Positions 4,695-53,999 of a DNA stretch of 64,000 nt are shown here, in pieces (within the stretch, counting starts at the first letter, position 1; the number at the start of each line of letters is the position of its first letter). The stretch spans positions 62,001-126,000 of IMG/VR virus record IMGVR_UViG_3300045974_000132; one strand, given 5' to 3'. The DNA comes from a virus. The position numbers and the translations under genes were made by a program. A model generated the notes under the pieces. The model did not search any database. It was not told the DNA's origin and saw nothing but the letters and a program-made list of their open reading frames with translations.

Positions 4695-4710
4695 TATGTA
4701 TCCTTATGTA

Positions 4711-5181: not shown

Positions 5182-5193
5182 GAAAATAATCCT

Positions 5194-5742: not shown

Positions 5743-5758
5743 ATGCCTACCCCTCTGA

Positions 5759-33805: not shown

Positions 33806-34903
33806 TCATATTCTCTTGCCCTTAGCAACAGAGCGCGAGTTAGCCAGCGTGAAGCTGAGAACTTCGCTCATGAGCCAGCCGCGAGCGGTAGAGCCGCTGT
33901 CAGCACCCGAAGTAGGTTCGCTACGAACACCACCACGATCACTGTACATAGCGTGATGTTCCGGGGTCGACAGAACGTAGATTTCGCCACGATTCAGGAC
34001 CTTCTGGTTCGGTTGGCGGAAGCCGTCCGTCAGAAGAGTCAGACCAACCAGAGTACCGAGTTCGCCGTTCAGGACCAAGTCATACTTGGTGACCGGATCA
34101 AGGAATGACGAGAAATCGTTGTTGCCGATAATGTCGTTCCAGTAATCGTTAGCGATGATCGCAGTGGTGGCCGGCAGGTTCCAGTCAGTGATGGCGGTAC
34201 GCAGATTGGCAAGCAATTGCGGCGTCAGTTGACCAGCGATGTAGTTAAGCGGATTGACAACGCCAACGGTCAAGTCAGCAGATTGCTTCCACAGCTTATC
34301 TTCCTTGACCATGATTGCGTCAAGACCCATGTTGTACAGGTTGTCAAGCGTGTCGCCGCCAACTTGTTCCATTTCGATACGATCAGCGCGCAGATTTGCC
34401 ACGACTTCAAATTCAGCCGGGTAGAACTGCTTGTTACGAATCATTTGGAACTGTACGTTTGCAGGGCCAGTAGCAACAACAGCCATTGCATCCCACATCG
34501 GGACGTTAACGCGCGGCAGTTCGCCTTGCTTCAGAGTCTGACCAACAGCAACGCGACGGAGGAAGCCTTCGCGGTTACGTTGTTCTTGAATCTGAACAGC
34601 CAGATCGGCGCCCAGAGCAGCCCACTTGACCGGATCAGCAGCAGCAGCGATCATAACTTCGCGGCGCTCTTGAGCCAGTTGCATTTGTTCTTCAGCAGAA
34701 GTAGATTGATGACGGATGTCACCCTTTTCCATTGCAGAGAACATGCCAGTAATGGCGCGAATCAGTTCTTTCTTGTCGTTTGCGTTGAACTCACCAGTCG
34801 AGGTCGACAGGAGACGTTCAGCAGTGCCAGGCATACGGAACTCAGTAACCGGGGCGCCGCTAGCAAGCACAACTTGGGAACCAGCGTACGGATTTGCTTT
34901 CAT
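33806..34903 (-). CDS. Major capsid protein
   Basis: 365 residues. Position after the prohead core and small head genes, size, and HK97-fold features: a helical N-terminal arm (NDKKELIRAITGMFSAMEKG), a segment GELPRVNVPMWDAMAVVATG, and a C-terminal half with ATTAIIANDYWNDIIGNNDF and LVGLTLLTDGFRQPN, as in capsid proteins of large myoviruses. The N-terminal ~60 residues could be removed on maturation by the prohead protease. Composition is visibly richer in G and C at third positions than neighbouring non-structural genes, as expected for a highly expressed gene. Good SD (AGGAG) before the ATG. Confidence 0.87.
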   Translation of the reverse strand: MKANPYAGSQVVLASGAPVTEFRMPGTAERLLSTSTGEFNANDKKELIRAITGMFSAMEKGDIRHQSTSAEEQMQLAQERREVMIAAAADPVKWAALGADLAVQIQEQRNREGFLRRVAVGQTLKQGELPRVNVPMWDAMAVVATGPANVQFQMIRNKQFYPAEFEVVANLRADRIEMEQVGGDTLDNLYNMGLDAIMVKEDKLWKQSADLTVGVVNPLNYIAGQLTPQLLANLRTAITDWNLPATTAIIANDYWNDIIGNNDFSSFLDPVTKYDLVLNGELGTLVGLTLLTDGFRQPNQKVLNRGEIYVLSTPEHHAMYSDRGGVRSEPTSGADSGSTARGWLMSEVLSFTLANSRSVAKGKRI

Positions 34904-35666: not shown

Positions 35667-37574
35667 TTACCGAGCGCGACGGCCGAGAGAGGAAACAGCA
35701 CGATGGATTTTTTGCATACCTACAGTATCTTCAGTAGAGACAGACACCTCAGTATTTGCACCGGGCTTCTGCTCAGTCGAAACAGAAGTACCCATGCCTG
35801 CTAAACGGCTCTCGATGGAATCAGAAGGTTGTGCAGAAGAAACCGCCTGATAGTTTGTACCGAGAATAGTCTTTGCGAGGCTTTCTTGCACTTCAGAAGG
35901 CTTACTAACAATGTCATTTGCTTGAGCAAACAGCACTGAGTGATAAGCATCTGCGTGTGCCTTGAACGCATTGTCGATAACGACTTCCGGATTACGTACG
36001 CCGGCACTCGACATTGCATTCCAAAGAGCGGACTTGAGAGGATTCTGGACGCCAGCAAAGAAGCCACGGTTGATACCGATAGCAGCAGTTGCCATAGCAG
36101 CCATAAACTTCTCTTGATGGCCCTTAATTTCAGCAGAAAGAGCAGCACGTTGTTCGGAGACTTGCGAATCCACTAAACGGCGAACTTCCTTAGAGACAGA
36201 AACCTTATGCTTGATCGGAGCAAAGCCGAGTTCAGCAAGAGCCTTCTTGATACCCGAGACCTTAGCGGTTGCCAGAGCAGCATGACCGAAAGACGGAGTA
36301 TCGAAAATATCAGCATTCTTACCAGCAGTAGCAGCGCGTGCCATTGCAATAGGAACACCCTTGTGGTATGCAGTCCAAGCAGCACAACCAGCAACCGTAG
36401 AGCTATAGCTTACGTCGAGGTCATCAGCAGAGGCACTTTCATCCAAGTCAGAATCAGCCGCGATTTCTTCGGTATCTTCACCGAGTTCATCACCTTCATC
36501 TTCAGAGCTATCATCGAGAACTGACAAAGCATTACCCTCATCTTCTTCATCTTCAGAAGCGTCATCCGATTCATCATCGCCGGAAGTTGATTTATCTGCA
36601 TCGCTAGATTCAGCAGCAGCAGCGTCTTCCTCACCAGCATCTTCAGAACCTTCATCTTCTTCAGCAGCGCCTTCGTCTGTGCCTTCTTCAGCAGCAGCAT
36701 CGTCGCCTTCGCCTTCATCTTCAGTAGAAGCATCTTCAACGTTGTCACCAGGAACTTCACCGTCGCCCAGGTCTTCTGACTTAGAGACAGTAACCTTAGT
36801 AGCGACAGCTTCTTCAACCGGCTTTTCGCTGAGGTCGATTTCACCAGCAACATCTTCAGAAGGTTCTTGAACTTCGCTCAAGCAAATCGGGCACTCTGAA
36901 ACGTTCTTATCCGAAAGGATGTGAACACCGCAGCCAGCAGAACTACATACAACGTACTGGGTCTTAACCTTAGTACCGCTGGACATAGAAGACAGCTTTT
37001 TGTGGGCAGAGAAAACGCGCATAGCTTCCTTGAATGAAGAAGAAACAACTACTGAAGAGTCTTCGTCTTCGTCGTCTTCTGCATCATCTTCTTCCGAAGA
37101 ATCGTCATCTTCTTCCTCGTCATCTGATTCATCATCATCTGATTCGGAAGCAATGTCTTCATCTTCGTCGGTATCTACATCACCCAGGTCATCTTCATCT
37201 TCATCACCGTCACATTCAGTGGCTAGAGCAGAAGTGCACTGCGGGCAATACTTAACCAGGGATTCACTGTCAAACACAACGTGGGCACCGCAACCAGACG
37301 AGCAAACCAGGTGGTTCGCTTCGATGTCCGCGCTGGAATTAGAAGCGAATTCCAGGGTATCGAGAATTTGGTTATCAGTTTCCAGGTCCATGTCACCAGT
37401 GCTTGGATTGAACATCTGTTCAGCATGACTGGCATGTGTAACGAAGGCTAACTTCCCATCATTACTCACTTGTGCAACCGCGCCCTTGCCCATGGCGAGC
37501 AACCGATACTTATTAATAGCATCGGTTTTAGAACGGCCCACTGCCAGGATGCCGTGAAATTCAGCTTTAGGCAT
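35667..37574 (-). CDS. Prohead core/scaffold-like protein with two zinc ribbons and acidic tracts
   Basis: 635 residues from the ATG at 37574, which has an AGGAG site; the frame could extend 18 codons further but without a site. Residues ~1-75 are a compact domain (KAEFHGILAVGRSKTDAINKY). Two similar zinc ribbons follow, HLVCSSGCGAHVVF...YCPQC near 90 and QYVVCSSAGCGVHIL...CPICL near 205, each succeeded by a long Asp/Glu/Ser tract. The C-terminal ~230 residues are helical (KEVRRLVDSQVSEQRAALSAE). First gene of the capsid transcript. The acidic composition and position match a prohead core or scaffold; zinc ribbons are unusual for that role. Confidence 0.6.
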   Translation of the reverse strand: MPKAEFHGILAVGRSKTDAINKYRLLAMGKGAVAQVSNDGKLAFVTHASHAEQMFNPSTGDMDLETDNQILDTLEFASNSSADIEANHLVCSSGCGAHVVFDSESLVKYCPQCTSALATECDGDEDEDDLGDVDTDEDEDIASESDDDESDDEEEDDDSSEEDDAEDDEDEDSSVVVSSSFKEAMRVFSAHKKLSSMSSGTKVKTQYVVCSSAGCGVHILSDKNVSECPICLSEVQEPSEDVAGEIDLSEKPVEEAVATKVTVSKSEDLGDGEVPGDNVEDASTEDEGEGDDAAAEEGTDEGAAEEDEGSEDAGEEDAAAAESSDADKSTSGDDESDDASEDEEDEGNALSVLDDSSEDEGDELGEDTEEIAADSDLDESASADDLDVSYSSTVAGCAAWTAYHKGVPIAMARAATAGKNADIFDTPSFGHAALATAKVSGIKKALAELGFAPIKHKVSVSKEVRRLVDSQVSEQRAALSAEIKGHQEKFMAAMATAAIGINRGFFAGVQNPLKSALWNAMSSAGVRNPEVVIDNAFKAHADAYHSVLFAQANDIVSKPSEVQESLAKTILGTNYQAVSSAQPSDSIESRLAGMGTSVSTEQKPGANTEVSVSTEDTVGMQKIHRAVSSLGRRAR

Positions 37575-37629
37575 ACTTTTGGCTCCTGTTAATTGTTGAA
37601 ACGAACGTGCAATTTCAAACACGTACAAA

Positions 37630-38673: not shown

Positions 38674-39810
38674 TTACAGCTTTCTAGGATCGAGCAAGTG
38701 TGGGCCAATAGCGGACACAAAAGCAGGCGTGTTAACAACCGAGCATTCAAAGCCCTTTGCATCATGGCACTTACGGAAAGCCAAACGTCCATCTGCTTGC
38801 TTATACGTAGGACGACCCATTTGGGTATGCTTGCAAGGGGATAAGTTAATACCCTTACCGACTACTTGGTTGCAGATAGAACACGAATACGAGGTATAGT
38901 AGAAGCCTACTGAATACGCATTCTGCTGACGGGTAAGGATTTGATCTACGAGTAAGCTATCCTTAGTACGGTCAAACGCCATAAGAAGAACAATCTTGTA
39001 GTAATTCGGATTGAACTTAATAGGACGTAAGAATGACTCAAGAATTACACCCTTGGCTTTCAACAGATTCTTGTTGTCGTGTTCCTGGTGGGTAGGCTGA
39101 CCCTTGAAGGTCTTGTACATCTGCATACCGTATTCAGGTTTGAACGACAGCATTTCCCTCAGTGAAAGTGAATCACCGTTGGTGTTGGGTAATCCGCTGA
39201 AGATTGCAGGTATAGGGACAAGAATATAATCCCTAATATCGCGGCTAATATCGTAATGCTCCGCAGCATACGGAAGCCAGTAGTTGCAATCGAGGATACG
39301 CTCAGAGTGCCCAGTGCCAGAAATCTGGGCCGAAAGTGGTAGTTCATTTGTGCCTTGTGCTAGTTTATCTAATGGTATGGGATTAAGGCCTAAACCAAAG
39401 CTTTGACTCAGCATCCCTGTAGAGGAACTAGCTAAAGCCAGTTTGTCTAAACTCCTACATAATGAAGTATCAATCCCACCTTTAATAGCGTTAGGATTTT
39501 GACCATCACTAAGAAGAGGATATCCTGTACCTGGGTTACCTGCGCCTAAGTAGGGCACGCTGGGATCATAATGCCCATGCGGTACATCAGCATTAGGATT
39601 GATAGGTTCTTCTGAGCCAATCTCACCAACATCTTCAGGATTGGCTACTTGGTCAAGTTGCTTGAACTCAAAGTAGTCACCAATTTGGGTAAGAACACCG
39701 ACAGGATTACCTTGGAAAGCAACAGTCGTAAACTTGGAATTACTTTGCGGCATTAAAGAGTAACTATTACTCTTTGCCCACGTATGCGGGTCTTGAATTT
39801 GAACAGTCAT
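38674..39810 (-). CDS. Prohead (capsid maturation) protease
   Basis: 378 residues. The catalytic core at ~185-320 fits the prohead protease family seen in large myoviruses: DYILVPIPAIFSGLPNTNGDSL, then YKTFKGQPTHQEHDN (His near 240), KAKGVILESFLRP, LLMAFDRTKDSLLVDQI and NAYSVGFYYTSYSCSIC (Ser near 303). A Cys2-His zinc-like site (CSIC...PCKH) follows. The ~180 N-terminal residues are Pro/Asn/Gly-rich and disordered-looking. It should cut scaffold, capsid and any internal proteins during maturation; it is therefore the candidate enzyme to trim an N-terminal targeting tag. Confidence 0.72.
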   Translation of the reverse strand: MTVQIQDPHTWAKSNSYSLMPQSNSKFTTVAFQGNPVGVLTQIGDYFEFKQLDQVANPEDVGEIGSEEPINPNADVPHGHYDPSVPYLGAGNPGTGYPLLSDGQNPNAIKGGIDTSLCRSLDKLALASSSTGMLSQSFGLGLNPIPLDKLAQGTNELPLSAQISGTGHSERILDCNYWLPYAAEHYDISRDIRDYILVPIPAIFSGLPNTNGDSLSLREMLSFKPEYGMQMYKTFKGQPTHQEHDNKNLLKAKGVILESFLRPIKFNPNYYKIVLLMAFDRTKDSLLVDQILTRQQNAYSVGFYYTSYSCSICNQVVGKGINLSPCKHTQMGRPTYKQADGRLAFRKCHDAKGFECSVVNTPAFVSAIGPHLLDPRKL

Positions 39811-41815: not shown

Positions 41816-42034
41816 TTATTCAACCTTCGGCTTAGACTTGGAGGCAGAGGCTGCGATTTCATCAACAACCTTATACATCTCCTTCTTGAAGCCCTCAATG
41901 TCCTGATTGACTAACAAATCAGAAACAGTGTTACCCCGATCACCAGCTAGCGCCGTCATAAGCCTAGAAAAGAAGGCACTACGATTAGACTTGTGCGACT
42001 TCTTCTTGCTTGTAGAAATTAATAGGATTGTCAT
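41816..42034 (-). CDS. Small basic protein with MTILLISTS start (72 aa)
   Basis: From the ATG at 42034 (AAAGGAAAC site); the longer frame to 42094 would start within the PAS gene. The N-terminus MTILLISTSKKKSHKSNR is a variant of the shared N-terminal motif, followed by a Lys/Ser-rich strip and two helices. No family recognised. Confidence 0.55.
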   Translation of the reverse strand: MTILLISTSKKKSHKSNRSAFFSRLMTALAGDRGNTVSDLLVNQDIEGFKKEMYKVVDEIAASASKSKPKVE

Positions 42035-42044
42035 ATAGTTTCCT

Positions 42045-43940
42045 TTATGGGTGCTGGGCGGCTTGCCCAAAACGACGTAGATCAGATACATCAATCATAC
42101 TGCAAATTAAGCCTTCAAAGCCTTCATCGCCTACTAATGCGTGCTTGTAAAATATAACATCGCGCATTTCGTTTAGTTCAAAGTTCCATACCTGTTGTTC
42201 AATAACCGATATAGTGGATTCTAAACTACAGGATATCTCAATATCGTTATCCTTCTGTACTTGAAAGGCTTTTAGAGTGCGTTCTTCTATGCTCTCTAAA
42301 ATAGACTGCTTACTCGGATTTCCTATTGCTTGCTTCCGCACATAGGCAACTAGATCAGCGCGAGTTCTACCTACAAAGTCGGACTTAGATAAACCGTACC
42401 AACGAGCATATAGGTCATTGCACGTTATATACTTTAGGTCTTTGTCTTTGTAGAATACCGGTAGAGGACTGCTATCAAAGATGTGCTGATGGAAACGCTG
42501 TACTGCCCGAATATCTGAAATATTGGTCACTACTGCAACGATACCGTCAAACTTACCATCGACAGACCTAAGCACCGACCTATATACTACTACGTCAAGG
42601 ATGCTCTTTGTTACGCGGTTGTACACTTGAGATTCATACGACTGTGCGGTCTGCCCACTAGTGAGCATTTCAAAATCTTTTTGCCGGTAGAACTCAGTTA
42701 AGATACCAGCATTCTGAAGATCGTATGTAAGTATTTGTTCTCTGGTGCGTCCTACCACTTCATCAATAGGAATTCCTATCAGATTGCAATACTTATCGTT
42801 ACAACCCGCATACTTTAAATCTCGATCTAGGTAGTACACAGGAGCTGGAATACTACTCAACAGTGTTTCCTTAAACCGCTTCATAGACAAGAGGTCTGTC
42901 AGATCAACAAAGGTTGCAAGCACGCCTTTAAACTCTTGCGACTTACTACGCAGGGCTGTGCAATACATCATCACTTCCCGCACTTCCGTATTATCTAAAG
43001 TACGAAAGTCCAACTTGTGTATCTGAATATCCGGAGCATCTTGGTCTTTTAAATCGTCTTCGATGCTATTTATAGTCGATTCCAAGTCTTTAGGAAACAA
43101 GTCTGCATTGGTCTTACCGATGAAGTCCGACGGCTTCTTGTTGATAAACGCATCGAAGGCTTGATTACTACCGATGATCTTAAACGAAGAGTCCTTATAG
43201 AATACCGGATTAGGTAGAGCCGCCAGCAAACTTAGTTGGAACTGCGTCAAGGATTCAACTTCTGATATAGCAGCTACCTGCTCAGAAGTGTCACGAAAGA
43301 TAACAAGGAATATAATGTTGTCTGGGGTTTCACTATCTACATTCAAGATGTTCGCAAACATCTCCGCAGGTAGGATATTGCCGGATCGTGTAACACATGA
43401 AACCGACTTTTTCTTATTCAGGAATTCTGTTGAATTGCCTGTTACGTAGTCCCGGTATAAGTCACGATACTCAACCATCGTAGTAGGCCGCATACTGTCC
43501 ACATATGCGATATACCGTAAAGCTTCCTCTTTAAACAGAACCGCATAGTCCTGTGTAGAATTCGAGATAAGGAAGTTAACGGACTTCCCAATCAAATCTG
43601 TAGAGGTAAATCCAAGGATGCGCTCGGCTGTTTGATTTGTACTAACAATGAAACCGTTAGCATCAATACTGATAAGCGGGTCCATTAAGCTATCTGAAAT
43701 AAGGGATACGCGCATCTTAGCACGTTCCAGTTCAGAGGACATACGAGATACGATCTGTTTAGCTTGGTCACGGGTAGAGTTTATGTCTTCCTGTAATTCA
43801 AGATGGGTTTTATCAATGCGCTCTAAGTCTTCACGACGGAGCATTGGGCGCTGGATATCGCACATAGCCTGGACTACTTGCAGACTTACTGTGGATTCAG
43901 ACGGCTTCTTTTTAAAGATATTATCTAGCCATGCAAACAT
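42045..43940 (-). CDS. Four-PAS-domain protein without an output domain
   Basis: 631 residues. N-terminal ~75 residues form a coiled-coil-like helix (EDLERIDKTHLELQEDINS). Four PAS domains follow: ~78-205 (DPLISIDANGFIVSTNQTAE), ~228-345 (PNPVFYKDSSFKIIGSNQAF), ~355-475 (PAPVYYLDRDLKYAGCNDKY) and ~485-625 (PLPVFYKDKDLKYITCNDLY). PAS 2-4 are close relatives, so the array arose by duplication. There is no kinase, GGDEF, EAL, HTH or nuclease domain. PAS folds bind small ligands or other proteins; here a scaffold or host-interaction role is likely. The next gene upstream encodes a membrane/coiled-coil protein, 2 bases away, which may anchor it. Confidence 0.85.
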   Translation of the reverse strand: MFAWLDNIFKKKPSESTVSLQVVQAMCDIQRPMLRREDLERIDKTHLELQEDINSTRDQAKQIVSRMSSELERAKMRVSLISDSLMDPLISIDANGFIVSTNQTAERILGFTSTDLIGKSVNFLISNSTQDYAVLFKEEALRYIAYVDSMRPTTMVEYRDLYRDYVTGNSTEFLNKKKSVSCVTRSGNILPAEMFANILNVDSETPDNIIFLVIFRDTSEQVAAISEVESLTQFQLSLLAALPNPVFYKDSSFKIIGSNQAFDAFINKKPSDFIGKTNADLFPKDLESTINSIEDDLKDQDAPDIQIHKLDFRTLDNTEVREVMMYCTALRSKSQEFKGVLATFVDLTDLLSMKRFKETLLSSIPAPVYYLDRDLKYAGCNDKYCNLIGIPIDEVVGRTREQILTYDLQNAGILTEFYRQKDFEMLTSGQTAQSYESQVYNRVTKSILDVVVYRSVLRSVDGKFDGIVAVVTNISDIRAVQRFHQHIFDSSPLPVFYKDKDLKYITCNDLYARWYGLSKSDFVGRTRADLVAYVRKQAIGNPSKQSILESIEERTLKAFQVQKDNDIEISCSLESTISVIEQQVWNFELNEMRDVIFYKHALVGDEGFEGLICSMIDVSDLRRFGQAAQHP

Positions 43941-44822: not shown

Positions 44823-45344
44823 CTATAGTTTAACGCCTTTATTCAACCATTGTTTAAACGCATCCCTATTCTCAACATGGCGGGCACGATACCCAATGAA
44901 CTGTAATTGAACAGGGAGTTCTTTAACACCTAACTTCTTTAAAGCAAGAGTACGGGCACGCCCTTCATGTCCTACAAACATTGGTACGCCTTCTTCGTTC
45001 TCAACAAAGAGATCAATGTTAATATCAAGAAAGGGACTTGCAATACTCTCACCTTGCTTCAGAAGATCAACCATCTGATAAGAGTCTCGATCACGCTTAT
45101 CTATGTCCGGTAAGGCATATAATAGAGTGTCGATATTCATAATAGCCATGCAACCCTTGTACAGCACATTTTGGTTGTTGGGCGTATTCCCTAAGCCGTC
45201 TTTATTATCAATGACAAACCATCCGTGCATACCTTTGAGCTTATATACACCTTCAGCATGTTTAAGACTAAACTCAGACAGACGGTCTACATCATCCGGT
45301 GGATATATTCTACCTTCTTTGCTTATGGATATGTAGAGTTCCAT
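44823..45344 (-). CDS. ParB/Srx-fold-like protein with MELYISIS tag
   Basis: 173 residues. Starts MELYISISKEGRIYPPDD, the shared N-terminal motif. The segment FVGHEGRARTLALKKLGVKELPV near 125-150 is the GHxR...A...G.....P motif of ParB-like nuclease/NTPase folds (ParB N-terminal domain, sulfiredoxin), and GLGNTPNNQNVLYKGC lies before it. ParB folds bind CTP or ATP and sometimes cut DNA; the activity here is unknown. It is the last of a run of similar small genes. Confidence 0.6.
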   Translation of the reverse strand: MELYISISKEGRIYPPDDVDRLSEFSLKHAEGVYKLKGMHGWFVIDNKDGLGNTPNNQNVLYKGCMAIMNIDTLLYALPDIDKRDRDSYQMVDLLKQGESIASPFLDINIDLFVENEEGVPMFVGHEGRARTLALKKLGVKELPVQLQFIGYRARHVENRDAFKQWLNKGVKL

Positions 45345-45345
45345 A

Positions 45346-46578
45346 TTAATACCTCATTCCATTACGTATGCTGCGCCGCATTGACCTAATGTCCTGCTTG
45401 CGTTCTACATGAGCTACAATCCTCTGCGCTTCCGCTCTAAGGGTTGCAAGCTGGGCTTCTGATACTTCGGTAGGTGGCAATTCATGGAACCACTCATTAG
45501 GAACTATGTCAAAGCGAGAAGAGGTAGCACCTATACGTATAAACGTCCACCGCTTACCGGCCCTGTCATTAGGACATACTATCATACCCTTAATCCAGGT
45601 CTTAGTATCTGGGTGATACCATTGAGCAAGACGCATATTAGAAGGACGGATAGCACGAGTCTCAGCTTTATCCCTAGCAGCTTTAAAGTTCTGCATCTTT
45701 TCTTGAGCAGCTTGTTGCCTCTGTTCAATCTGCTTCTTCTCATCCTCGTCAAAGTATTCCATCTTATTGAACTGAGAATAGCGAGAAGGGGTAAGACCGA
45801 ACTTATACATCCACTTAGCCCATAGAGGACCGTGACCGTTATTACCTTCAGGTGCTGACTTTTCTATGTCTGTAACAGCTTGATGGGCAATTTCATGTAC
45901 GATAGTCGTCAAAGCAACATGTTCCTGGGCTTTTAACAAGCGCGGAGAAACACCCAACTTATGCTGACGCGCATACCATACACCTAGTCTGCTAGTTTTA
46001 GCTCCCATATCCTTAGTAACAATGAAGGAAGGCATGAGCAACTTATTATCGCACTTAGTCTTGTTGACCTTATTCCATACTTCAATCAGATAACCAATTG
46101 CATCGGTGTTGGAGCGAATACGACTAAACCTAAGTGGATTACCGTAAGCTGTAACAAGAGCATGTTCTTCTTTTTCTTTCGGGGTCTCTTTTACTTCTTT
46201 AACCGCAGCAGGTGGAGTAGACGGGCGTTGCTCTTTCTTCAGAACAGGTAGGCGTGTTCCGGTTCTAGCTGCTCTATCTCTAGTAGTGGGTGCCTCTTGT
46301 GCTGCAAATAGCTTCTTAGCCCTAGCAGGCTTTAGTTCATCGGCTCGAGGAGCAACGCGCTTATCAAAGTCATCTTCTGTTATTTTGTATTCGTATGTTA
46401 AACCGCGTTCGGGAGTAACGACATAGACCGCAGTCCTGCCGTCACGATAACCGAAAACATCACCTTTCTTCAATGTCAAAGAACGAGCACCTGCGCTTAG
46501 ATTTAAAGCACGGGTTCCATTGAAGGTAGCAAAGTCATAGCTCTCGAAGTCCTTAGACAAGGATAAAAGGATCTTCAT
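45346..46578 (-). CDS. SprT-like zinc metalloprotease with MKILLSLS tag and repeated beta domain
   Basis: 410 residues. Begins MKILLSLSKDFE (tag). Residues ~15-75 form a small beta domain (SLTLKKGDVFGYRDGRTAV) shared with two neighbours. A Lys/Pro-rich linker follows. The catalytic region has TTIVHEIAHQAV (HExxH near 228-232) and HGPLWAKWMYKFG with a third zinc ligand, the SprT/Spartan pattern. SprT-like proteases cut DNA-bound proteins. The last ~100 residues (WYHPDTKTWIKGMIVC) are another small domain. Packaged or early-acting host-attack function is an inference. Confidence 0.75.
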   Translation of the reverse strand: MKILLSLSKDFESYDFATFNGTRALNLSAGARSLTLKKGDVFGYRDGRTAVYVVTPERGLTYEYKITEDDFDKRVAPRADELKPARAKKLFAAQEAPTTRDRAARTGTRLPVLKKEQRPSTPPAAVKEVKETPKEKEEHALVTAYGNPLRFSRIRSNTDAIGYLIEVWNKVNKTKCDNKLLMPSFIVTKDMGAKTSRLGVWYARQHKLGVSPRLLKAQEHVALTTIVHEIAHQAVTDIEKSAPEGNNGHGPLWAKWMYKFGLTPSRYSQFNKMEYFDEDEKKQIEQRQQAAQEKMQNFKAARDKAETRAIRPSNMRLAQWYHPDTKTWIKGMIVCPNDRAGKRWTFIRIGATSSRFDIVPNEWFHELPPTEVSEAQLATLRAEAQRIVAHVERKQDIRSMRRSIRNGMRY

Positions 46579-46587
46579 GGTAAACCT

Positions 46588-46992
46588 TTAAAAGTATATT
46601 TTCTTAAAAGCAGGAATGCTGATTGCTTTCATACAGGGTAGTGTAGTACTACCGTCAGGAAGCTTCGCTTTGTAGAATACCTCACCGTCGGCATCAAAGA
46701 TATGTCCAGTAGTTTCAGTATCCACTATTCGATGCTGATGACGATCATACACAACGGCATGAAAAGGATCTTTTACCATATCAAGAAAACCGCCAAATAT
46801 GTAGATCGTCCAGTCGCTACCCCAGTCCTCAAAGTCTTCTGCTTTAAGGTACCAAGCTATAGCCCCATAACAGCTATCCTTCGTGTAGGTTCCCGGTTCA
46901 TGTCCTGGGTTTGTGGATTTAATAGTCTTGGCTATTTTCTGTAGCACTTCTTCGGGTGTCTTACGGCCTGAAACAGATATGTAGAGTTCCAT
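46588..46992 (-). CDS. Hypothetical protein with MELYISVS tag; possible Cys-peptidase-like fold
   Basis: 134 residues starting MELYISVSGRKTPEE, the clearest tag. The order DSCYGAIAWYL (Cys near 41), DPFHAVVYD (His near 88) and RIVDTE (Asp near 100) resembles the Cys-His-Asp layout of papain-like or transglutaminase-like folds, but the match is weak. It overlaps no neighbour and lies between ligase and SprT genes. Confidence 0.6.
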   Translation of the reverse strand: MELYISVSGRKTPEEVLQKIAKTIKSTNPGHEPGTYTKDSCYGAIAWYLKAEDFEDWGSDWTIYIFGGFLDMVKDPFHAVVYDRHQHRIVDTETTGHIFDADGEVFYKAKLPDGSTTLPCMKAISIPAFKKIYF

Positions 46993-47000
46993 ATAACACC

Positions 47001-49046
47001 TTAGAATAGTAGATTCAAATACTTCTTTAGAAGTTCCTCAGAGGTGTATATCGGAATCCCAAGTTCTTTAGCTTTGGTGGCTTTGCTAGATGCACTACTT
47101 TTATCTTTGACAACAAGGGCCGTTGTCTTCGCATTGACGCCAGAAGCGATTGTACCACCATGTCTGACGATGGCGTTCTCAAGTTCGACATTTCTAAATC
47201 CTGTGAAACATATTGCCTGATCTTTCATTGTTGCACTCTTGACAACAACCTTCTCAGGCTTCTTGAAGGTAATAGGCAGAGTATCAACCCACTTGATAAA
47301 CTTCGGCAAACCTGCTGCAAACTGTTCCGCAGTAACAGAACTAAACCCGTCAATGCTTTCCACTATATCAACTATGTTACCTTCAAGTTTTGTAGCTAGT
47401 TTGAACAGGTCGTGCTTATCAATAATCATCTGCATACGTTTCGTACCGAAGTTGCGTCCAAAGAATCCACTATGGGCTGCAACATTGGCAAGATTAGCTT
47501 CCTTCAGCTTGGACTGAATTTGCTGATAGTATTTGTTTGCAGATACTTCCTTAATACCTTCAAACTTCAAGAACGTAACAGGCTTTGCAAGCAAGAAGTC
47601 TTTGATCTTTGTCATCCCACCGTCGTAGCACTTACGGATGGTTGCAATAGCTAGATGTTCAACACCTAAGCCGGATGACAAGAAAGCATAGATACGTTTA
47701 ACTGCAACAACAGGATTACCGGCTTCCTTAATCAGAATATCAACTTCGTTTGCATTCCAAGTAAAGGGAACTTTCGGCAGATCAGGCTTACGTGCAGGTT
47801 TTACAACACGCGTTATATACGGAATTACTTCACCGCTGCGTGTTACTTCTACAATAGCCCCTGGACCAATAGGTCTATCAGGTTTGCCTTCATACTTCTT
47901 ACGATCTTTGTACGAATAACCGTGAACGATGAAGAAGCCGTTATGACCAGTTGCCCAATCGACAGTGGCTCCCGCTAGTTCAACAGGTTCGATCTTGATA
48001 CGAGGCTTTGCAGAACCGTGTTTGCTTGCATTCCATTCAACGTACTCTACCTTAGTCTGTACTAAGTTTTCCGTTTCATCATTGATCTTGAAAGCAATTG
48101 CATACGAAGGATCTTCACCTGTAAGAGAAGCACGATGCGGTTTGTCTTGATTGATAACTAGACCGTCAATCATATATTTGGATGCAGTCTTACGCTTTGC
48201 CAGCATAGTCGAGAGGACAGAATCACTCAATCGACCAACTACTGTATGCGGTACTACATCAAAGCCTAACTTCTTCAACTTAGCCAGTTGAGCAGATGGA
48301 CTTAAGGCACTATTCATAATCTCATGTGCAAGAATCTTTACGTCAGGTAGTGCTTTATGCACACCTTTAGTATTGAATACACCTGCTACCATATTACGTG
48401 CATTCTTGTAGTTCTTTGCATTACCTGAGTCACGACCGTGCTTTGCTAAGAATACACTCTTCGGGAGAATAGTCTCAAACCGAACAGCAATGTTTTCATT
48501 CAATTGCTGAGGTATGTTCATATGCGGAACAAGGAATGATACATCTTGTCCGATAGTAGGACTAGTCTTTGTATAAGCTTTAGGGGTTGCACCCTTTGTA
48601 TAAACAACTTCGAGAGCATTACCATCAAGCTTGTCTGATACAACCCAAGGGCCAGTATTCTTCTTAGCAAATATATCAAGCTTACCGTCACCTGGGTAGG
48701 ATTTGCCTAAGCTAGACATGGCATATGGAAGCTTCGTCTTCACTTTGCCTACGACAGGCTTAGCTCCAGAGATAGGCTTCCACGTTGGGTCATTTGCTTC
48801 AATGATCTTTTCTAGCAGATCGTATCGGTCATCAGTAAGCTCAAGCATACCTTTGTCGATGATTGCTACATCAGGTAGTACGGGTACTGCACCTCTGTGC
48901 AACTTACCCATCTTCAAAGCTGTCGCAACTTCAGGAGAATACTCTGACAGTTTAATACGGAGGTTTTTAGCCTTATTGTAGTACGCATCTTTTGCAGCAA
49001 GTACCAACTTCTTCAGTGCTGCAATATCACGTTTAAGGAATTTCAT
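47001..49046 (-). CDS. NAD+-dependent DNA ligase (LigA-like)
   Basis: 681 residues. The adenylation motif SDKLDGNALEVVY near 134-146 (KxDG with the nucleophilic Lys) is preceded by the conserved AMSSLGKSYPGDG stretch. Motif-bearing segments YMIDGLVIN near 290 (DG-V) and AIAFKIN follow, then an OB-fold-like part with GPGAIVEVTRSGEVIPYI, HhH-like segments, and a C-terminal BRCT domain (QAICFTGFRNVELENAI, from ~605). The N-terminal Ia domain for NMN binding looks shorter than in bacterial LigA. It seals nicks in phage DNA. No tag at its N-terminus, although it lies within the run of tagged genes. Confidence 0.85.
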   Translation of the reverse strand: MKFLKRDIAALKKLVLAAKDAYYNKAKNLRIKLSEYSPEVATALKMGKLHRGAVPVLPDVAIIDKGMLELTDDRYDLLEKIIEANDPTWKPISGAKPVVGKVKTKLPYAMSSLGKSYPGDGKLDIFAKKNTGPWVVSDKLDGNALEVVYTKGATPKAYTKTSPTIGQDVSFLVPHMNIPQQLNENIAVRFETILPKSVFLAKHGRDSGNAKNYKNARNMVAGVFNTKGVHKALPDVKILAHEIMNSALSPSAQLAKLKKLGFDVVPHTVVGRLSDSVLSTMLAKRKTASKYMIDGLVINQDKPHRASLTGEDPSYAIAFKINDETENLVQTKVEYVEWNASKHGSAKPRIKIEPVELAGATVDWATGHNGFFIVHGYSYKDRKKYEGKPDRPIGPGAIVEVTRSGEVIPYITRVVKPARKPDLPKVPFTWNANEVDILIKEAGNPVVAVKRIYAFLSSGLGVEHLAIATIRKCYDGGMTKIKDFLLAKPVTFLKFEGIKEVSANKYYQQIQSKLKEANLANVAAHSGFFGRNFGTKRMQMIIDKHDLFKLATKLEGNIVDIVESIDGFSSVTAEQFAAGLPKFIKWVDTLPITFKKPEKVVVKSATMKDQAICFTGFRNVELENAIVRHGGTIASGVNAKTTALVVKDKSSASSKATKAKELGIPIYTSEELLKKYLNLLF

Positions 49047-49047
49047 A

Positions 49048-49359
49048 TCAGTCTGCCCGAATATTATTGTGAAGTCGATGCCCAGCCGGTGTTTTACAGC
49101 AGTTAGGATACTGCAATCCCGTTATACCGTTTACAGACATTGGATAGTAGATATTGTTACAGCTAGGACACATCCAAGCATATCCTGCACTGACTTTCAT
49201 ACCCCAATCACCTCTACCCGGTATAGCACCTCTACCCTCAGTGTATATAACACGATAGGTATAGCGATCATTGAAAGCTTTTGCAATAGCTTCTTTCTCA
49301 GAATTTTCAGCCCTTGCCTGTAACTTATTTTTTAGTTGTGTAAGCCAAGCTTTAATCAT
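49048..49359 (-). CDS. Small zinc-ribbon protein (103 aa)
   Basis: Helical N-terminus (KAWLTQLKNKLQARAENSEK) and a C-terminal zinc-like site: CPSCNNIYYPMSVNG, then PNCCKTPAGHRLH. Ends 1 base before the ligase start. RBS AAGGGCTGA precedes the ATG. No family recognised. Confidence 0.55.
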   Translation of the reverse strand: MIKAWLTQLKNKLQARAENSEKEAIAKAFNDRYTYRVIYTEGRGAIPGRGDWGMKVSAGYAWMCPSCNNIYYPMSVNGITGLQYPNCCKTPAGHRLHNNIRAD

Positions 49360-49364
49360 TTGAG

Positions 49365-49730
49365 TCAGCCCTTAGGATATTCTTTTACGAAGGTGTTGTA
49401 CATTTTGATAGCCTGCTCACGTTCTTCCCTCAAAACGTTTAGGCCCTTCTCCTTACCAGCAGAAGTTTTAGCAGTGTAGAGTGCGATTATAGAACTTACC
49501 GTCTCCAATCTATCTACTACATTGCTTTTTGTTTCCTTCAAGTCAGCTACCCAATCAGGGTCTTGATAGTTGGTACGTATCTGTCGATCCAGGTCTGCTA
49601 TGTTAGACTTGTAAGTAGTCCGCAACTTATCGAGCAAGATCATAGGAAAAGGTTTAGGATTAACAGGCAGAGCGTCTGTTAAATAACCGTATTCACTTCT
49701 AGAAATAGATGTTTCAATAAGGAGTTGCAT
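49365..49730 (-). CDS. Helical hypothetical protein with MQLLIETSIS start (121 aa)
   Basis: Begins MQLLIETSISRSEYG, a divergent copy of the shared N-terminus (extra residues before the second Ser). The rest is largely helical and charged (RTTYKSNIADLDRQIRTN, KEKGLNVLREEREQAIKM). No family recognised. Confidence 0.55.
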   Translation of the reverse strand: MQLLIETSISRSEYGYLTDALPVNPKPFPMILLDKLRTTYKSNIADLDRQIRTNYQDPDWVADLKETKSNVVDRLETVSSIIALYTAKTSAGKEKGLNVLREEREQAIKMYNTFVKEYPKG

Positions 49731-49739
49731 TTCTATTCC

Positions 49740-50384
49740 TTATACGTACCAATTAGAAGAGTATGAGAATACACGACCTGAAAACGGCTTGCCTGCAACA
49801 CGAACATTACCGTAAGTAGCGGTGTGCGATTTAGGCTTATCTGTTTCAATACCGTATTTTGTAGTTAGGTACTTTGCAAACTTGGAGAAGCTACGCTGAA
49901 GAAGCGGTGTAGCTGACCATCCCTCAACAGCTTCCTTACTAGAACAATACGCCCCTACAGAGATAGAGGTCTTAGTCATCTGATATACGACCACGATAGA
50001 TTCCGGTCGACGATCATATACCGTATTGAAAGCTATGCAAATTGTTTCATCTTTGAAAAAGCTACGAACCTCACTACCTTTTAAAGCAGTTATGATAGAG
50101 GCTGTATTCTTTACCAAAGCTTCTTCAATGTCTAGTCCATGCACATTGAGGAATTCAACTTGTTCTTTGAAAGAGTCACCTACGGCTGCTGCTAGCGACC
50201 TATCTTTTAACTCTTTGACAAGACGTTTATTAACGCCGTAAACTACACCGTCCTTGATTACACTAGGGCGGCCTTCGTACAGCGCAAGGCGGAAGATGTC
50301 ATTTTTGTGCAAAACCAATTCTTTTTGGCCAGACCTAAAACGAGCACCCTTATCCGCAGTGTAATATCTATAGGACGGTTTCAT
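49740..50384 (-). CDS. Hypothetical protein sharing the LKKGD beta domain (214 aa)
   Basis: Residues 1-60 (RYYTADKGARFRSGQKELVLHKNDIFRLALYEG) align with a domain in the SprT-like protein and in the next protein. The remainder is alpha/beta with ETICIAFNTVYDRRPESIVVV and a C-terminal strand KPFSGRVFSYSSNWYV. It lacks the tag motif itself. Its start is one base from the end of the upstream neighbour, so they are probably co-translated. Confidence 0.55.
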   Translation of the reverse strand: MKPSYRYYTADKGARFRSGQKELVLHKNDIFRLALYEGRPSVIKDGVVYGVNKRLVKELKDRSLAAAVGDSFKEQVEFLNVHGLDIEEALVKNTASIITALKGSEVRSFFKDETICIAFNTVYDRRPESIVVVYQMTKTSISVGAYCSSKEAVEGWSATPLLQRSFSKFAKYLTTKYGIETDKPKSHTATYGNVRVAGKPFSGRVFSYSSNWYV

Positions 50385-51086
50385 TTAGATACCCGGCTTA
50401 ACTTCAGTGTCTTTGTCTTCGTCATCTTCCTTATCCTTAGATTCAGCACCCTCAGGTACGTCATCACCGATAGTAGGATCGACAAAACTGATACTAATCT
50501 TCTCTACACGAACGCCTGTGCTTTCAACCGTTTTATAGCGGCGGAACTCTTCAGGAATTTCATCGTCATTGAAGTCTTCAATTTCAGGAAGATGCAACTC
50601 TGATAACTTTACTTTTACAGTTCTAGGAGCATCTGGATTACCCGGCTTGGTAACGCCCGTCATCTTAGTCACTACTGCCTTACGCGGGTCTTTATGGACA
50701 ACAGCTGCCGGCTTGGGAGTAGAAACTTTAAGCATAGTACCTAGCTTAGTGATAGGTATTGCCTTTTGCTTAACAGGACTTGTAGGAGCCGCAGAGGACT
50801 TGCGAGTAGTAGGTTTTGCAGAAGTAAGAGTAGGTATCTTACCGTTATACTGCTTAGAAGCATTCATCAAGTTTTCAGACTTGGTGATCTTCAGTTGGAA
50901 CTTTGAACCGTCTTCTAAAACGATTTCATCGTATTCCTTATTACGCAGTTCCCGTACTCCGAATAAAGCTTTAGGGGCTAATACGTGCTTGTCACCCTTT
51001 TCAGATAGAACAGTGCGTGACTTGGCTCCTGCGTAACGCATCCAGTAATACTTAGCAGGATTAGCGGCTGAGATAGATATTTTCAT
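50385..51086 (-). CDS. Hypothetical protein with MKISISAA start and LKKGD-like beta domain (233 aa)
   Basis: Begins MKISISAANPAKYYW, a copy of the shared N-terminus. Residues ~15-75 (RYAGAKSRTVLSEKGDKHVLAPKALFGV) correspond to the beta domain of the SprT-like protein. A Lys/Pro/Thr-rich linker (TTRKSSAAPTSPVKQK) leads to VKVKLSELHLPEIEDFNDDEIPEE and an acidic C-terminus (KDKEDDEDKDTE). No enzyme motif seen. Confidence 0.55.
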   Translation of the reverse strand: MKISISAANPAKYYWMRYAGAKSRTVLSEKGDKHVLAPKALFGVRELRNKEYDEIVLEDGSKFQLKITKSENLMNASKQYNGKIPTLTSAKPTTRKSSAAPTSPVKQKAIPITKLGTMLKVSTPKPAAVVHKDPRKAVVTKMTGVTKPGNPDAPRTVKVKLSELHLPEIEDFNDDEIPEEFRRYKTVESTGVRVEKISISFVDPTIGDDVPEGAESKDKEDDEDKDTEVKPGI

Positions 51087-51088
51087 AG

Positions 51089-51583
51089 TCAGTCCTTAAT
51101 GTCTTCAACCTGTTCACCCGTAAGAGTGATCTCAAATTTCAGGGAAGATAACATGCGGTTAAGCTTTGCAAAGCACTTAGGCTTATCACCGATTTTGTCG
51201 GCAAGTGTAATGTGCGCTTCATAGTCTGGGAAGCTATGCTGACAACCTAGATCAACGTATTGCTCATGGCGAATAGCAAGATCGCGTGAATTAAGTTGAA
51301 GCACAAGATACCCTGCATTGTCATGACCCGGCCAGTAGGATAGCTTGTCGGACCACGCTTTGAATGTGAACGGTCCTGCATTCAATAGTTTGGTTACGCG
51401 AATGCTGTGAGGAGCTTCCTCTTTACTGTACATAATCGTGCAGTGTAGATCCGCTTCCTCATATGTCTTAACACCCTCTGCTTGAAGTTCTTCATTGAGG
51501 GCACTCATTAGCTGGCTAAATCCTTTTACAGGCATAACGCAGCTATATAGTCCAGACTTACCTGTGTATGTTGCTTTCTTCAT
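51089..51583 (-). CDS. acb1: 2H phosphoesterase, Acb1-like (copy B)
   Basis: 164 residues. GLYSCVMPVKG at the start, LHCTIMYS near 47 (first HxT), YLVLQLNSRDLAIRHEQY, then LGCQHSFPDYEAHITLAD near 115-127 (second HxT) and KIGD, with GEQVEDIKD at the end. This whole layout matches what I recall of T4 57B/Acb1 proteins, 2H phosphoesterases that degrade 3'3'-cGAMP and related CBASS messengers. It sits upstream of the tagged genes and overlaps the next gene by 4 bases. A second, more divergent copy is at 37691-38185. The substrate is inferred. Confidence 0.7.
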   Translation of the reverse strand: MKKATYTGKSGLYSCVMPVKGFSQLMSALNEELQAEGVKTYEEADLHCTIMYSKEEAPHSIRVTKLLNAGPFTFKAWSDKLSYWPGHDNAGYLVLQLNSRDLAIRHEQYVDLGCQHSFPDYEAHITLADKIGDKPKCFAKLNRMLSSLKFEITLTGEQVEDIKD

Positions 51584-52143
51584 GCTGGTGCCCCTTCAGA
51601 CCCTTCATCAAAATCTAGTAGAGTTTCCTCATAGCTGCTACCACCACCTTGCCTATTAGCAGGCTGCTGCATAGCTTGTTTAAATCGTAGAGCAGCTTCT
51701 TCCTTAGTCATTTTAACAAGGTGTGTTCTATCTACGACTGCTGCCCAGAACTGAAAAGCGTCTTTAATCGGATAGGATAAGGGCAGTGTATAGTGCTGTC
51801 CCATGCGTAGTTTGCACAGATCAATTGCCATCTGACCTACTTGAATAACACCGTGCGTTAGTTGCGATGGTGACTTTTCAGCAAAAGCATCCGTCATCGT
51901 ATCATCCATGTTATGGCGATACCCAGAATACTCAATAAGTTTTGCATCAATGTCGGCATGCTCCAACTCTTTAAGCATGTTCTTAAGGAGTCGCGGATAA
52001 GCATGTTGAGCTTGCTCTGCACTAACCTGAGCCTGCCTAGCCAAAGTATCTGTCTGTATGTAATGGTTTATTATGTGAGCTACGGTTGCGGATAAGCTGG
52101 CGTAGGAAAGAATACTATTGCTTACGGAAATTAATATATTCAT
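51580..52143 (-). CDS. Hypothetical protein with MNILISVS tag (187 aa)
   Basis: Begins MNILISVSNSILSYASL. The rest is mainly helical (HAYPRLLKNMLKELEHADIDAK, AFQFWAAVVDRTHLVKMTKEEAALRFKQAM). The ATG overlaps the stop of the portal gene (ATGA) and its own stop overlaps the next start. No family recognised. Confidence 0.6.
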   Translation of the reverse strand: MNILISVSNSILSYASLSATVAHIINHYIQTDTLARQAQVSAEQAQHAYPRLLKNMLKELEHADIDAKLIEYSGYRHNMDDTMTDAFAEKSPSQLTHGVIQVGQMAIDLCKLRMGQHYTLPLSYPIKDAFQFWAAVVDRTHLVKMTKEEAALRFKQAMQQPANRQGGGSSYEETLLDFDEGSEGAPA

Positions 52144-53999
52144 TTCATACCCTTCTTGTTCAAGTTCTTAATTGCCTTGATGATAGTTTCGTTAGCTTTA
52201 GACTCAAAGGTATTACGATTTACCACATGCTTACGCTTACCTGTCTTGGTAAAAGCATAGGGTTCATGGCCTGTAAAGTCACGATCTAACAATGGGCGAG
52301 CTCCATTAGCCCCTAATACAGCAGACCTAGAGCCAGCCCTAACAGGAGAAGCTAATGCAAGTAACGCACGTTCTGCGGATTCAGACTCTTCTCCGCCTTC
52401 ACCACCAGCAGGAGCAGGATTTAGAGCAGTAATCTTCTTCATGTATTCCGAGATACGCTTACGAATATCTAGGTCTTCATCTTGCTGACGGATGAGTGTT
52501 TCAAGATCAAGCCCACCTGCAGCAGCCAATGCGCGTAACGGAACTGGAACACCCTTCTGTGTCAAGGAATCAAGCATGTCGATATATGCAGTATCACCTT
52601 CAGCCTTAAGTTGCTTAGTCCAATGCACAGAAGGAATAAACAACTTACTACCGTCATTCATTTGCATCAAGGCTTGTTCACTATCAACCTGATTCATCAG
52701 ATTCGGATTGATATTGACGCGACCGTTCTTAACAGTGAAGCCGTTGATTAGCGAAATCAGTGGGAAGAGGGTATCATAGAACAACTTCCGAGTCATAGTC
52801 TCACGGAAGCTACGAATCATATCAAGGAATACTGTGATAGCATTACCTGAAGTGTCGTAGTTTGCGTCACCGGATAAGAAGCCTTCTGATATACCTAGAC
52901 CGCGCAGCTTATGGCTTAATACGCTATCTGCAAAGTCTGTTGACTTCCAGAAGTCACCACCCTGACGTAATTCTTCAACCATCACACCTGAGCGTGTTGC
53001 AATGATAGCACCGATCGGGTCACTATCTGCATTCATAAACAACTCAGTCATGAATTCCATATCTTGTACAGAAGGAATCCATTGATCGCCGTCACCCAAA
53101 GACAAGTGAAGAATGCCTCGTTGGCGTCTAGCTGATTCAACTAGAGTACCGCGGAAGAGATTCTTTTCAATCAAATAAATGGGCAAAATCCGACGGAAGT
53201 ACGAAGTACCTCGGTCAGATCGAGAGAATGTTCTACGTGGGACATAGATGGTGCTTAAAGGATCAAGCTCGATAGACCCTTCAAGGATCTTGTCGATAAT
53301 CTCATGCCCTAAATGTTCTTTGATCCGTTTGATTCTAGGCGTATCTCTACCTAGGATTTCTTTCAATTGATCTGGGAACTTAACTGTGATAATGGGCTGT
53401 TGACTATAGAACGGAAGTGATTCAACGGTCAAGTCATCAGCTTGGTGAGGAAGAATATCCGTAAAGATTTTCTTCTCACGATTATACAGTAGGGAGCTAC
53501 AATGCTCACCTAATACCAGATAATCTACAGCAATCTCTGGAATCAATGTACGGAAGTTCAACCGTTCAATTGTCTCCAGATATATCTCACTGATCTTTTT
53601 GGTGTCACCTTTAACAGACGGAAAACCGCCTAGGTTGAACTCACCAAAAGGTAGCATAGACATTAAGTCAACAGCAGAACCTGCGACGCTATCATTGTAG
53701 TAAATATCCCTATATACGCTATGTAGTACCGACTCCGTCTGAGGAGTCATACCTGTTAGCATAGGATCTACGTCGATAGTGATTGCATTACCCGATATGT
53801 TCGTATTCGGACTACCGGTTACGCGCATTGACGTATTTGAAGTTGATTCAAATCCTTTAGAGATAGGCTTAGTCCCTACTCTCGTACCAGATTTTGAGGT
53901 AGTGCCTAAGTTTCTTTTTAAGTCAATTGGTTCTGTTTTTGTAGTTTGTTGACGGACAGCCTGGATTGCAGGATGCCCGCTTTTAGACACTTTAAACAT
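52140..53999 (-). CDS. Portal protein
   Basis: 619 residues. Portal features: VLHSVYRDIYYNDSVAGSAVDL near 90-110, the clip/stem-like YVPRRTFSRSDRGTSYFRRILPIYLIEKN near 250-280, KLRGLGISEGFLSGDANYD near 375 and a helical crown (QMNDGSKLFIPSVHWTKQL). It lies directly after the terminase and zinc-ribbon genes. It forms the dodecameric vertex through which DNA is packaged. Basic C-terminus (KTGKRKHVVNRN). Confidence 0.85.
   Translation of the reverse strand: MFKVSKSGHPAIQAVRQQTTKTEPIDLKRNLGTTSKSGTRVGTKPISKGFESTSNTSMRVTGSPNTNISGNAITIDVDPMLTGMTPQTESVLHSVYRDIYYNDSVAGSAVDLMSMLPFGEFNLGGFPSVKGDTKKISEIYLETIERLNFRTLIPEIAVDYLVLGEHCSSLLYNREKKIFTDILPHQADDLTVESLPFYSQQPIITVKFPDQLKEILGRDTPRIKRIKEHLGHEIIDKILEGSIELDPLSTIYVPRRTFSRSDRGTSYFRRILPIYLIEKNLFRGTLVESARRQRGILHLSLGDGDQWIPSVQDMEFMTELFMNADSDPIGAIIATRSGVMVEELRQGGDFWKSTDFADSVLSHKLRGLGISEGFLSGDANYDTSGNAITVFLDMIRSFRETMTRKLFYDTLFPLISLINGFTVKNGRVNINPNLMNQVDSEQALMQMNDGSKLFIPSVHWTKQLKAEGDTAYIDMLDSLTQKGVPVPLRALAAAGGLDLETLIRQQDEDLDIRKRISEYMKKITALNPAPAGGEGGEESESAERALLALASPVRAGSRSAVLGANGARPLLDRDFTGHEPYAFTKTGKRKHVVNRNTFESKANETIIKAIKNLNKKGMK

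Follow-up and report, generated by a model that had tools for sequence, protein, structure and literature searches.

A lineage-specific N-terminal tag on otherwise unlike proteins of a giant phage, a candidate cleavable capsid-targeting sequence

An eight-residue N-terminal tag is common to ~16 otherwise unlike proteins of a giant phage, part of which are encoded in the window analysed here, i.e., a stretch of 64,000 nucleotides (positions 62,001 to 126,000 of record IMGVR_UViG_3300045974_000132). The tag is found in genome-specific versions, has been gained or lost in a modular way on homologous proteins, and matches motifs in the capsid protein and in a scaffold-like protein. Judged from these sequence patterns, it very probably represents a cleavable, lineage-specific capsid-targeting sequence of ~8–9 residues that would load proteins into the head. 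No published account of the tag has been found in the literature open to search.

The tag and its enrichment in the genome

Across the 286-kb genome to which the window belongs, the strict pattern M[EKNQTDS][LIVMFYA]x[ILVF]S[ILVAST][SA] has been found at 11 N-termini among 355 called genes, more than 100 times the 0.08 that its occurrence at internal positions (17 of 74,541) would lead one to expect. An iterated tag profile has returned 15 genes at or below an expectation of 0.01, followed by two at ~0.2. Besides the genes collected in Table 1, about seven tagged genes lie outside the window, at record positions 132318(-), 271655(+), 274050(+), 274360(+), 277825(+), 279107(+) and, more weakly, 173361(-). 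The same protein set emerges from an unbiased comparison of N-termini over residues 2–10, in which 36 non-homologous pairs have been alike versus 2–9 in later blocks; this excess persists with pairs of homologous bodies removed, and the T4 capsid-targeting sequence MKTYQEFIAE has been recovered as a positive control. MKAIVAVSS at position 1228 of the record has been rejected as a tag, as it begins at an internal Met of a large helicase whose ORF reaches the edge of the record.

Table 1. Tagged genes and head genes in the window (positions of the window; tag DNA, the stretch encoding the tag).
Feature	Position	Strand	N-terminus	Remarks
Tagged protein, 310 aa	1105..2037	-	MEVLVSISKSDVLYHL...	tag DNA 2014-2037
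Tagged protein, 105 aa	16948..17265	-	MELLISVSANTYG...	tag DNA 17242-17265
Major capsid protein (MCP)	33806..34903	-		54% identical to PaBG gp80
Acidic scaffold-like protein	35667..37628	-		PaBG gp82 homologue; initiates at TTG; the gene call, with its end at 37574, gives 635 aa
Head maturation (prohead) protease homologue	38674..39810	-		50% identical to PaBG gp260
Tagged small protein, 72 aa from ATG 42034	41816..42034	-	MTILLISTSKKK...	longer TTG ORF to 42094 less likely
Tagged protein, 173 aa	44823..45344	-	MELYISISKEGR...	tag DNA 45321-45344; resemblance to ParB seen by eye only (GHEGRARTLALKKLGVKELPVQ)
Tagged SprT-like metallopeptidase, 410 aa	45346..46578	-	MKILLSLSKDFE...	Pfam; tag DNA 46555-46578
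Tagged protein, 134 aa	46588..46992	-	MELYISVSGRKT...	tag DNA 46969-46992
Tagged protein, degenerate tag, 121 aa	49365..49730	-	MQLLIETSISRSE...	tag DNA 49707-49730
Tagged protein, KMPT-N domain (weak), 233 aa	50385..51086	-	MKISISAANPAKYYW...	tag DNA 51063-51086
Tagged protein directly downstream of portal gene, 187 aa	51580..52143	-	MNILISVSNS...	tag DNA 52120-52143
Portal protein	52140..53999	-		
Tagged GNAT acetyltransferase, 156 aa	61725..62195	-	MEFSISLAGSL/SIVPVSKVTPEDL...	Pfam; tag DNA 62172-62195

An earlier sequence-only reading had listed ten proteins sharing the pattern. All ten coordinates are correct and nine of the proteins fit the pattern, the tenth, at 49365–49730 (MQLLIETSIS), doing so only loosely; the ORF given as 41816–42094 starts with TTG at 42094, and its tag is present from the inner ATG at 42034 (MTILLISTSK). 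The carriers had all been called unrelated, which has to be corrected for those at 45346 and 50385, as both weakly share the Pfam domain KMPT-N (in the former it follows the tag). Regarding the assigned folds, SprT and GNAT have been recovered by Pfam, and the labels ART-like (1105) and ParB-like (44823) are without Pfam support. The argument that selection acts on the peptide and not on a ribosome-binding context holds, since Ser at tag positions 6 and 8 is encoded by both TCN and AGY codons, and therefore the conserved entity is the peptide, not the DNA. The background count that had been proposed as a possible refutation has left the idea standing, the pattern being absent from T4, Illi-2, RHph_N28_1 and PhiXhv-12, and the suggested examination of the remaining genome and of related phages has yielded the tagged genes outside the window as well as tags in the relatives. 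Searching viral contigs with three tagged proteins has returned no relatives, and metagenomic relatives with a 40% identical terminase (L014–L016, parts of G003) have no such tags. AlphaFold predictions from single sequences have reached a pLDDT of 36 for the 310-aa and 46 for the 134-aa tagged protein, too low for use.

Tag versions across related jumbo phages

The tag has the form xISxS in the window phage, JA11, Alexandra, fHe-Yen9-02 and, weakly, NCTB, the form xLAxA in Lu11 and HRDY3, and the form AxxRLxA in Motura and BcepSauron. Homologous proteins carry whichever tag their genome uses, and there are homologues with no tag at all: those of the 310-aa protein wear the respective tag in HRDY3 and Lu11 and lack it in JA11, and the SprT-type proteins of Lu11 and HRDY3 begin directly at the domain. 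Consequently, the receptor is probably a common one, and specific to each phage. At both small positions, the choice between S/T and A/G follows genome class (43:3 versus 2:22 and 37:9 versus 0:25), and no matching difference has been observed in the overall A/S content.

The one virion proteome in the group, that of PaBG, consists of 14 gel bands (PMC7412058), among which no clearly tagged protein occurs, only abundant bands having been read and PaBG tags being few. The PaBG virion helicase gp202 (RefSeq gp284) has been checked for the tag and has none. The virion proteome of fENko-Kae01 has been set aside as a test, as this phage has been judged from its described relatives and its 360-kb genome to belong to another lineage.

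The tag core in head proteins

The MCP of the window phage contains two hSxS motifs only, L32-STS (34799–34810) and Q66-STS/AEE (34697–34708), the latter lying at the predicted pro-region junction. The MCPs of Lu11 and HRDY3 each have a single [ILVM]A[VTIL]A, which is located at residue 68/69, at the pro-region junction (QVATA/SS, QIATA/SS), and in the SxS phages the junction reads STSA, SESH, STSAN or SESQ. The loss of ~20% of the PaBG MCP on maturation (PMC7412058) agrees with residue 72 of 368.

The scaffold-like protein of the window phage holds six hSxS motifs versus 2.9 expected and ranks 12th among 330 proteins (fourth under a tighter motif, chosen afterwards). In Lu11 (8 versus 0.69), HRDY3, JA11, Alexandra and fHe-Yen9-02, its counterpart is the most motif-dense protein of the proteome for the motif of its own class and not first for that of the other class; the idea of a motif in gp82 and the MCP arose from looking at six phages, so that the out-of-sample cases are limited to JA11, Alexandra and fHe-Yen9-02, and the compared phages are related, hence not independent trials. 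The same ranking on T4 has placed gp22, gp23, gp68 and gp21 at positions one to four. As a sequence motif, the end of the leader is thus shared with capsid and scaffold, strongly in Lu11, HRDY3, JA11, Alexandra and fHe-Yen9-02 and weakly in the window phage; the Motura tag motif has been sought in the Motura scaffold-like protein and not found. The tag core matches the predicted cutting site of the prohead protease, whose homologue in the window phage has an N-terminal extension of ~120 aa compared to its relatives. The gene of the scaffold-like protein lies beside the capsid gene.

The sequence-only reading had proposed, as a candidate, a head-loading tag analogous to that of T4 yet different from it. 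Since a cleavable capsid-targeting sequence predicts a match of the tag core to capsid and scaffold motifs, the agreement observed here supports this interpretation. That the tag core recurs at the capsid pro-region junction and is dense in the scaffold-like protein had not been part of the proposal.

Proposed mechanism and alternatives

We infer that tagged proteins may bind the scaffold, be cleaved, become packaged and finally be injected. The first half of the tag (M-E/K-hydrophobic-x) would bind the scaffold-like prohead core, and the second half (I-S-V/I/L-S, then A/K/S/G/N) would serve as the cleavage site of the prohead protease, with S or A as predicted P1. Tagged proteins and the acidic scaffold-like protein would be drawn together into the prohead, upon which the protease would cut the MCP pro-region, degrade the scaffold and clip the tag, and the freed enzymes would be kept in the head, injected with the DNA and disarm the next host. 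For the clade of PaBG, Lu11, JA11 and Alexandra and its neighbours Motura and BcepSauron, we consider it fairly probable that the tag forms a lineage-specific "address code", the letters of which shift jointly in capsid, scaffold and at least 12 cargo proteins while the specificity of the protease drifts. Reading the tag in a sequence would therefore list the injected counter-defence arsenal of each phage, including a virion-carried anti-Thoeris protein.

The sequence facts would suit any head-assembly partner recognising the motif, and the N-terminus may be only a protease site, cut and not targeting, or a scaffold-docking strand that is bound and left uncut, in which case the scaffold repeats would be binding sites. 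We regard this as unlikely, as the motif sits where the PaBG loss would place the MCP cut and the same method selects true protease substrates in T4. A route to the tail, the membrane or an infection compartment, or to another time, unconnected with the head, appears highly improbable: a short hydrophobic-polar leader could suit other sorting machines and some tagged genes are distant from the head genes (173361, 271655–279418 of the record), but the presence of the motif in MCP and scaffold-like protein of the same genome, changing in step with the class, indicates the head.

The position of the tags immediately at the start codon would also be compatible with a regulatory role of the 5' coding DNA or of a ribosome-binding context; however, synonymous codons vary freely and the peptide class of homologues changes with the genome, which leaves this explanation with hardly any credibility. 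Chance, or a remnant of duplications that gave rise to tagged genes, could be invoked on account of the KMPT-N domain in two carriers and of paralogues in some families, but is refuted by the enrichment and by its persistence among pairs with non-homologous bodies, and its probability is negligible.

Comparison with known systems

The T4 capsid-targeting sequence, a short N-terminal leader (7–19 aa), is carried by several differing cargo proteins, i.e., the internal proteins IPI–IPIII and Alt, and is removed by gp21 (PMC9026906). In the functional sense the tag described here is of this type, being a short N-terminal sequence shared within one phage by several proteins that are otherwise unrelated; the end of the leader is in both systems a prohead-protease site recurring in scaffold and capsid protein (here as predicted), and the T4 cargo, once injected, acts on the host, as we propose for the tagged proteins. 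By sequence it does not belong to the T4 family (MKTYQEFIAE, [LI]xE/; E at P1), as its predicted P1 is S or A and ISxS, LAxA or AxxRLxA stand in place of FIAE and LxE. Moreover, there are more carriers per genome (~16), related phages differ in tag class together with their capsid and scaffold sites, and packaging is a prediction from sequence. In phage P1, the N-terminal packaging signal of the anti-restriction protein DarB, of which 30 residues suffice for a reporter (PMC9024508), directs a protein into the head in a manner resembling our proposal, whereas it has been described for one protein and the 8-residue tag here is shared by a set of ~16.

In the jumbo phages SPN3US and phiKZ, the prohead protease acting on head proteins is AXE-specific (PMC10052503); many proteins are ejected and N-terminal propeptides removed, as would be the case for the tag. 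The V-A-x-E/S preference resembles the small-x-small logic of the tag, but recognition ends in E instead of S or A, the propeptides mostly comprise 111–254 aa (two of 20–24 aa), and no shared short tag has been described. Polyvalent proteins, for which injection with the DNA has been predicted as well, fuse many domains in one large polypeptide (PMC5512222). Their domains overlap with the cargo (ART-PolyVal ADP-ribosyltransferase, metallopeptidase), while the tagged proteins are separate, mostly small, single-domain or without known domain, and united by a common leader, and are thus not polyvalent proteins in the sense of several disparate effector domains per polypeptide.

Candidate cargo

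The injected proteins of jumbo phages are mostly unknown, and virion proteomics rarely tells cargo from contamination. A tag that is readable from DNA, differs between lineages and is linked with a protease motif would directly list candidates for injected effectors in many phages. It would further offer a testable case of a protease co-evolving with a dozen or more substrates, and possibly a short address with which very large phage heads could be loaded with foreign proteins. The tagged cargo already includes a Tad6-type anti-Thoeris protein, polyvalent-type ADP-ribosyltransferases (ART-PolyVal), and SprT, GNAT and NUDIX proteins. In YerA41, an unrelated phage, a Tad6-like protein carries the annotation of a structural protein.

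A Shared N-Terminal Tag

An N-terminus of about eight residues, shared by otherwise unlike proteins, had been claimed for ten genes in the sequence-only reading, and it stands as described apart from two corrections: for the gene placed at 41816 the start is the ATG at position 42034, and the protein at 49365 is a loose match. When we called genes ourselves across the entire record, the supposed excess over background was borne out, as the strict pattern occurs at 11 N-termini versus 0.08 expected from internal positions, and a profile derived from the tags sets 15 genes (expectation ≤0.01) apart from the remaining ones. In an unbiased pairwise comparison of residues 2-10 of all proteins, excluding pairs with homologous bodies, 36 similar pairs have been observed versus 2-9 per later block; the same test recovers the known T4 leader MKTYQEFIAE. 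Since the tag serine codons are drawn from both the TCN and AGY sets, the peptide is the conserved entity, in agreement with the selection on peptide proposed earlier. A protein with apparent repeated PAS-type sensor segments, rare in phage, adjoins a tagged small gene.

Related Phages and Head Genes

The source virus record comprises 286,393 bases (the window being bases 62001-126000). The large terminase shares 40-45% identity with its counterparts in the Pseudomonas phages HRDY3, Lu11 and PaBG, in phage NCTB, in Erwinia phage Alexandra and in Dickeya phage JA11, a jumbo group named 'Lupandier' (PMC7412058). The head genes lie inside the window (table below). The prohead protease ORF has ∼120 additional N-terminal residues compared with its relatives, which may reflect a fusion or an incorrectly assigned start.

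Features of the phage and their positions
Feature	Window	Record	Strand
Capsid protein	33806-34903		
Acidic 635-residue protein (gp82 after PaBG)	35667-37628		
Protease	38674-39810		
Protein with PAS-type segments	42045-43940		
Untagged protein with HxT-type motifs	51089-51583		
Portal	52140-53999		
Very large DNA helicase (L001)		1-6231	+
Tagged Tad6 protein (L013:4825-5577)		277825-278577	+

Shared N-termini recur in related phages, with tag sets in HRDY3 (MELMLALAA...), Lu11 (MKIQLAVA...), Motura (MEIQAxARLxA...) and in JA11, Alexandra and fHe-Yen9-02 (MEIVISLSA...). NCTB has a shorter version (MKIVSISA, MKIISISA) next to its head genes, and BcepSauron a form (MKLEAATRLLAT) resembling that of Motura; the same kind of test has revealed no tag set in Illi-2, RHph_N28_1 and PhiXhv-12. 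For the Lu11 and JA11 tagged genes checked, start sites in the public annotation equal ours. The third tag class, AAxRLxA, is found on many small proteins of Motura (112891-145187 and 177347) and on small proteins of BcepSauron (35607, 51391, 53403, 151820, 175135). Topoisomerase I also starts tag-like in HRDY3 (106693, MMEMSIAAAA), Lu11 (154604, MNVHIAVAAA), PaBG (56209, MHTSLSAV) and NCTB (182625, MLITLS), which suggests that this enzyme may be packaged.

Concerted Change and the Prohead Protease as Probable Partner

The tag is a module that alters in concert across the proteins of a genome, as homologous proteins bear the tag of their own genome. The family of the gene at window 1105 begins with MEVLVSISKSDVLYHL in this phage, MEMMLALAGSSVLYHL in HRDY3, MKIQLAVAGSSVLYHI in Lu11 and a tagless MKPLYHFTQ in JA11; a family of 600-900 residues carries VSISAL/VSLSAL in JA11 and LAVAAV/LALAAV in Lu11 and HRDY3; NUDIX proteins carry VSLSAK, ISLSAK or QIAVAK and are tagless in PaBG. 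Over all tags, in hand-compiled lists, the residues at the two small positions follow the genome class, being S/T in one class and A/G in the other (43:3 versus 2:22 and 37:9 versus 0:25), and overall A/(A+S) is nearly equal between classes (e.g., Alexandra 0.58, Lu11 0.59).

Such concerted change is expected if one lineage-specific partner reads all tags, and from the sequences this partner is probably the prohead protease. The acidic gp82, adjoining the capsid gene, is absent from the PaBG virion list (PMC7412058), which fits the expectation for a scaffold. Lu11 gp82 contains the AxA motif eight times versus 0.69 expected, including QLAVA and LATA, identical to tags. For the motif of its own class, gp82 ranks first in the proteomes of Lu11, HRDY3, JA11, Alexandra and fHe-Yen9-02 and second in PaBG, a comparison among phages related to one another. 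Inspection of six of the phages had prompted the idea, which leaves JA11, Alexandra and fHe-Yen9-02 as the sole out-of-sample cases. In the same ranking gp82 does not top the proteome for the opposite class's motif. The excess is weaker in the present phage (6 versus 2.9 expected, rank 12 of 330), where a tighter motif, picked afterwards, places gp82 fourth and the capsid protein third. Applied to T4 with its [LI]xE motif, this ranking puts gp22, gp23, gp68 and gp21, the genuine head substrates and the protease, at proteome ranks 1-4. The Motura tag has found no explanation when its motif was sought in that phage's scaffold-like protein.

Maturation removes ∼20% of the PaBG capsid protein (PMC7412058), a loss that indicates residue 72 of 368. 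The aligned junction reads QVATA|SS in Lu11 and QIATA|SS in HRDY3, in both the sole AxA-motif match of the entire capsid protein, and in the SxS phages QSTSA (this phage), VSESH (JA11), HSTSAN (Alexandra) and VSESQ (fHe-Yen9-02). Several Alexandra proteins (166074-168900) have a second, longer leader type, MxLIKINLxxAV...SxSA; the leaders MALIKINLAGAVESVSA (before K) and MCLIKLNLDEAVKSTSA (before N) end in a site also present in the Alexandra capsid protein. The sole similar N-terminus outside Alexandra is that of PaBG gp83 (MLIKINLLEAV, 54998-55960), which has been detected in PaBG virions (PMC7412058).

The first part of the T4 leader serves core targeting, whereas gp21 cleaves the final part (PMC9026906). 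From this analogy we infer that the hydrophobic first part of the tag would bind the prohead core and that the prohead protease would cleave after ISxS or LAxA, leaving the enzyme free inside the head to be injected.

Putative Cargo

Few carriers are named by Pfam: a SprT-like peptidase and GNAT in this phage, ART-PolyVal (2e-27) and KMPT-N in JA11, NUDIX and GNAT in fHe-Yen9-02, and an RMF-like match below cutoff in Motura. A further tagged protein has the domain of Tad6, a Type I Thoeris inhibitor (E 7e-36), and by sequence is thus a candidate for an anti-defence factor that travels in the virion. Phage YerA41, whose particles have been analyzed by LC-MS/MS (PMC7354516), has a Tad6-like protein annotated as 'structural'. 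All these cargo types are proteins thought to be injected with the DNA (PMC5512222). One protein without a tag resembles 2H phosphoesterases in having a pair of HxT-type motifs (HCTIMY, HITLAD) and is possibly of the kind destroying cyclic-nucleotide signals; LigT-type genes lie close to the protease in PaBG and Motura. The very large helicase (PHROG 21391/62), whose ORF continues past the end of the record, is split by an intein that contains a LAGLIDADG endonuclease, and its PaBG homologue (221 kDa) is present in virions by MS.
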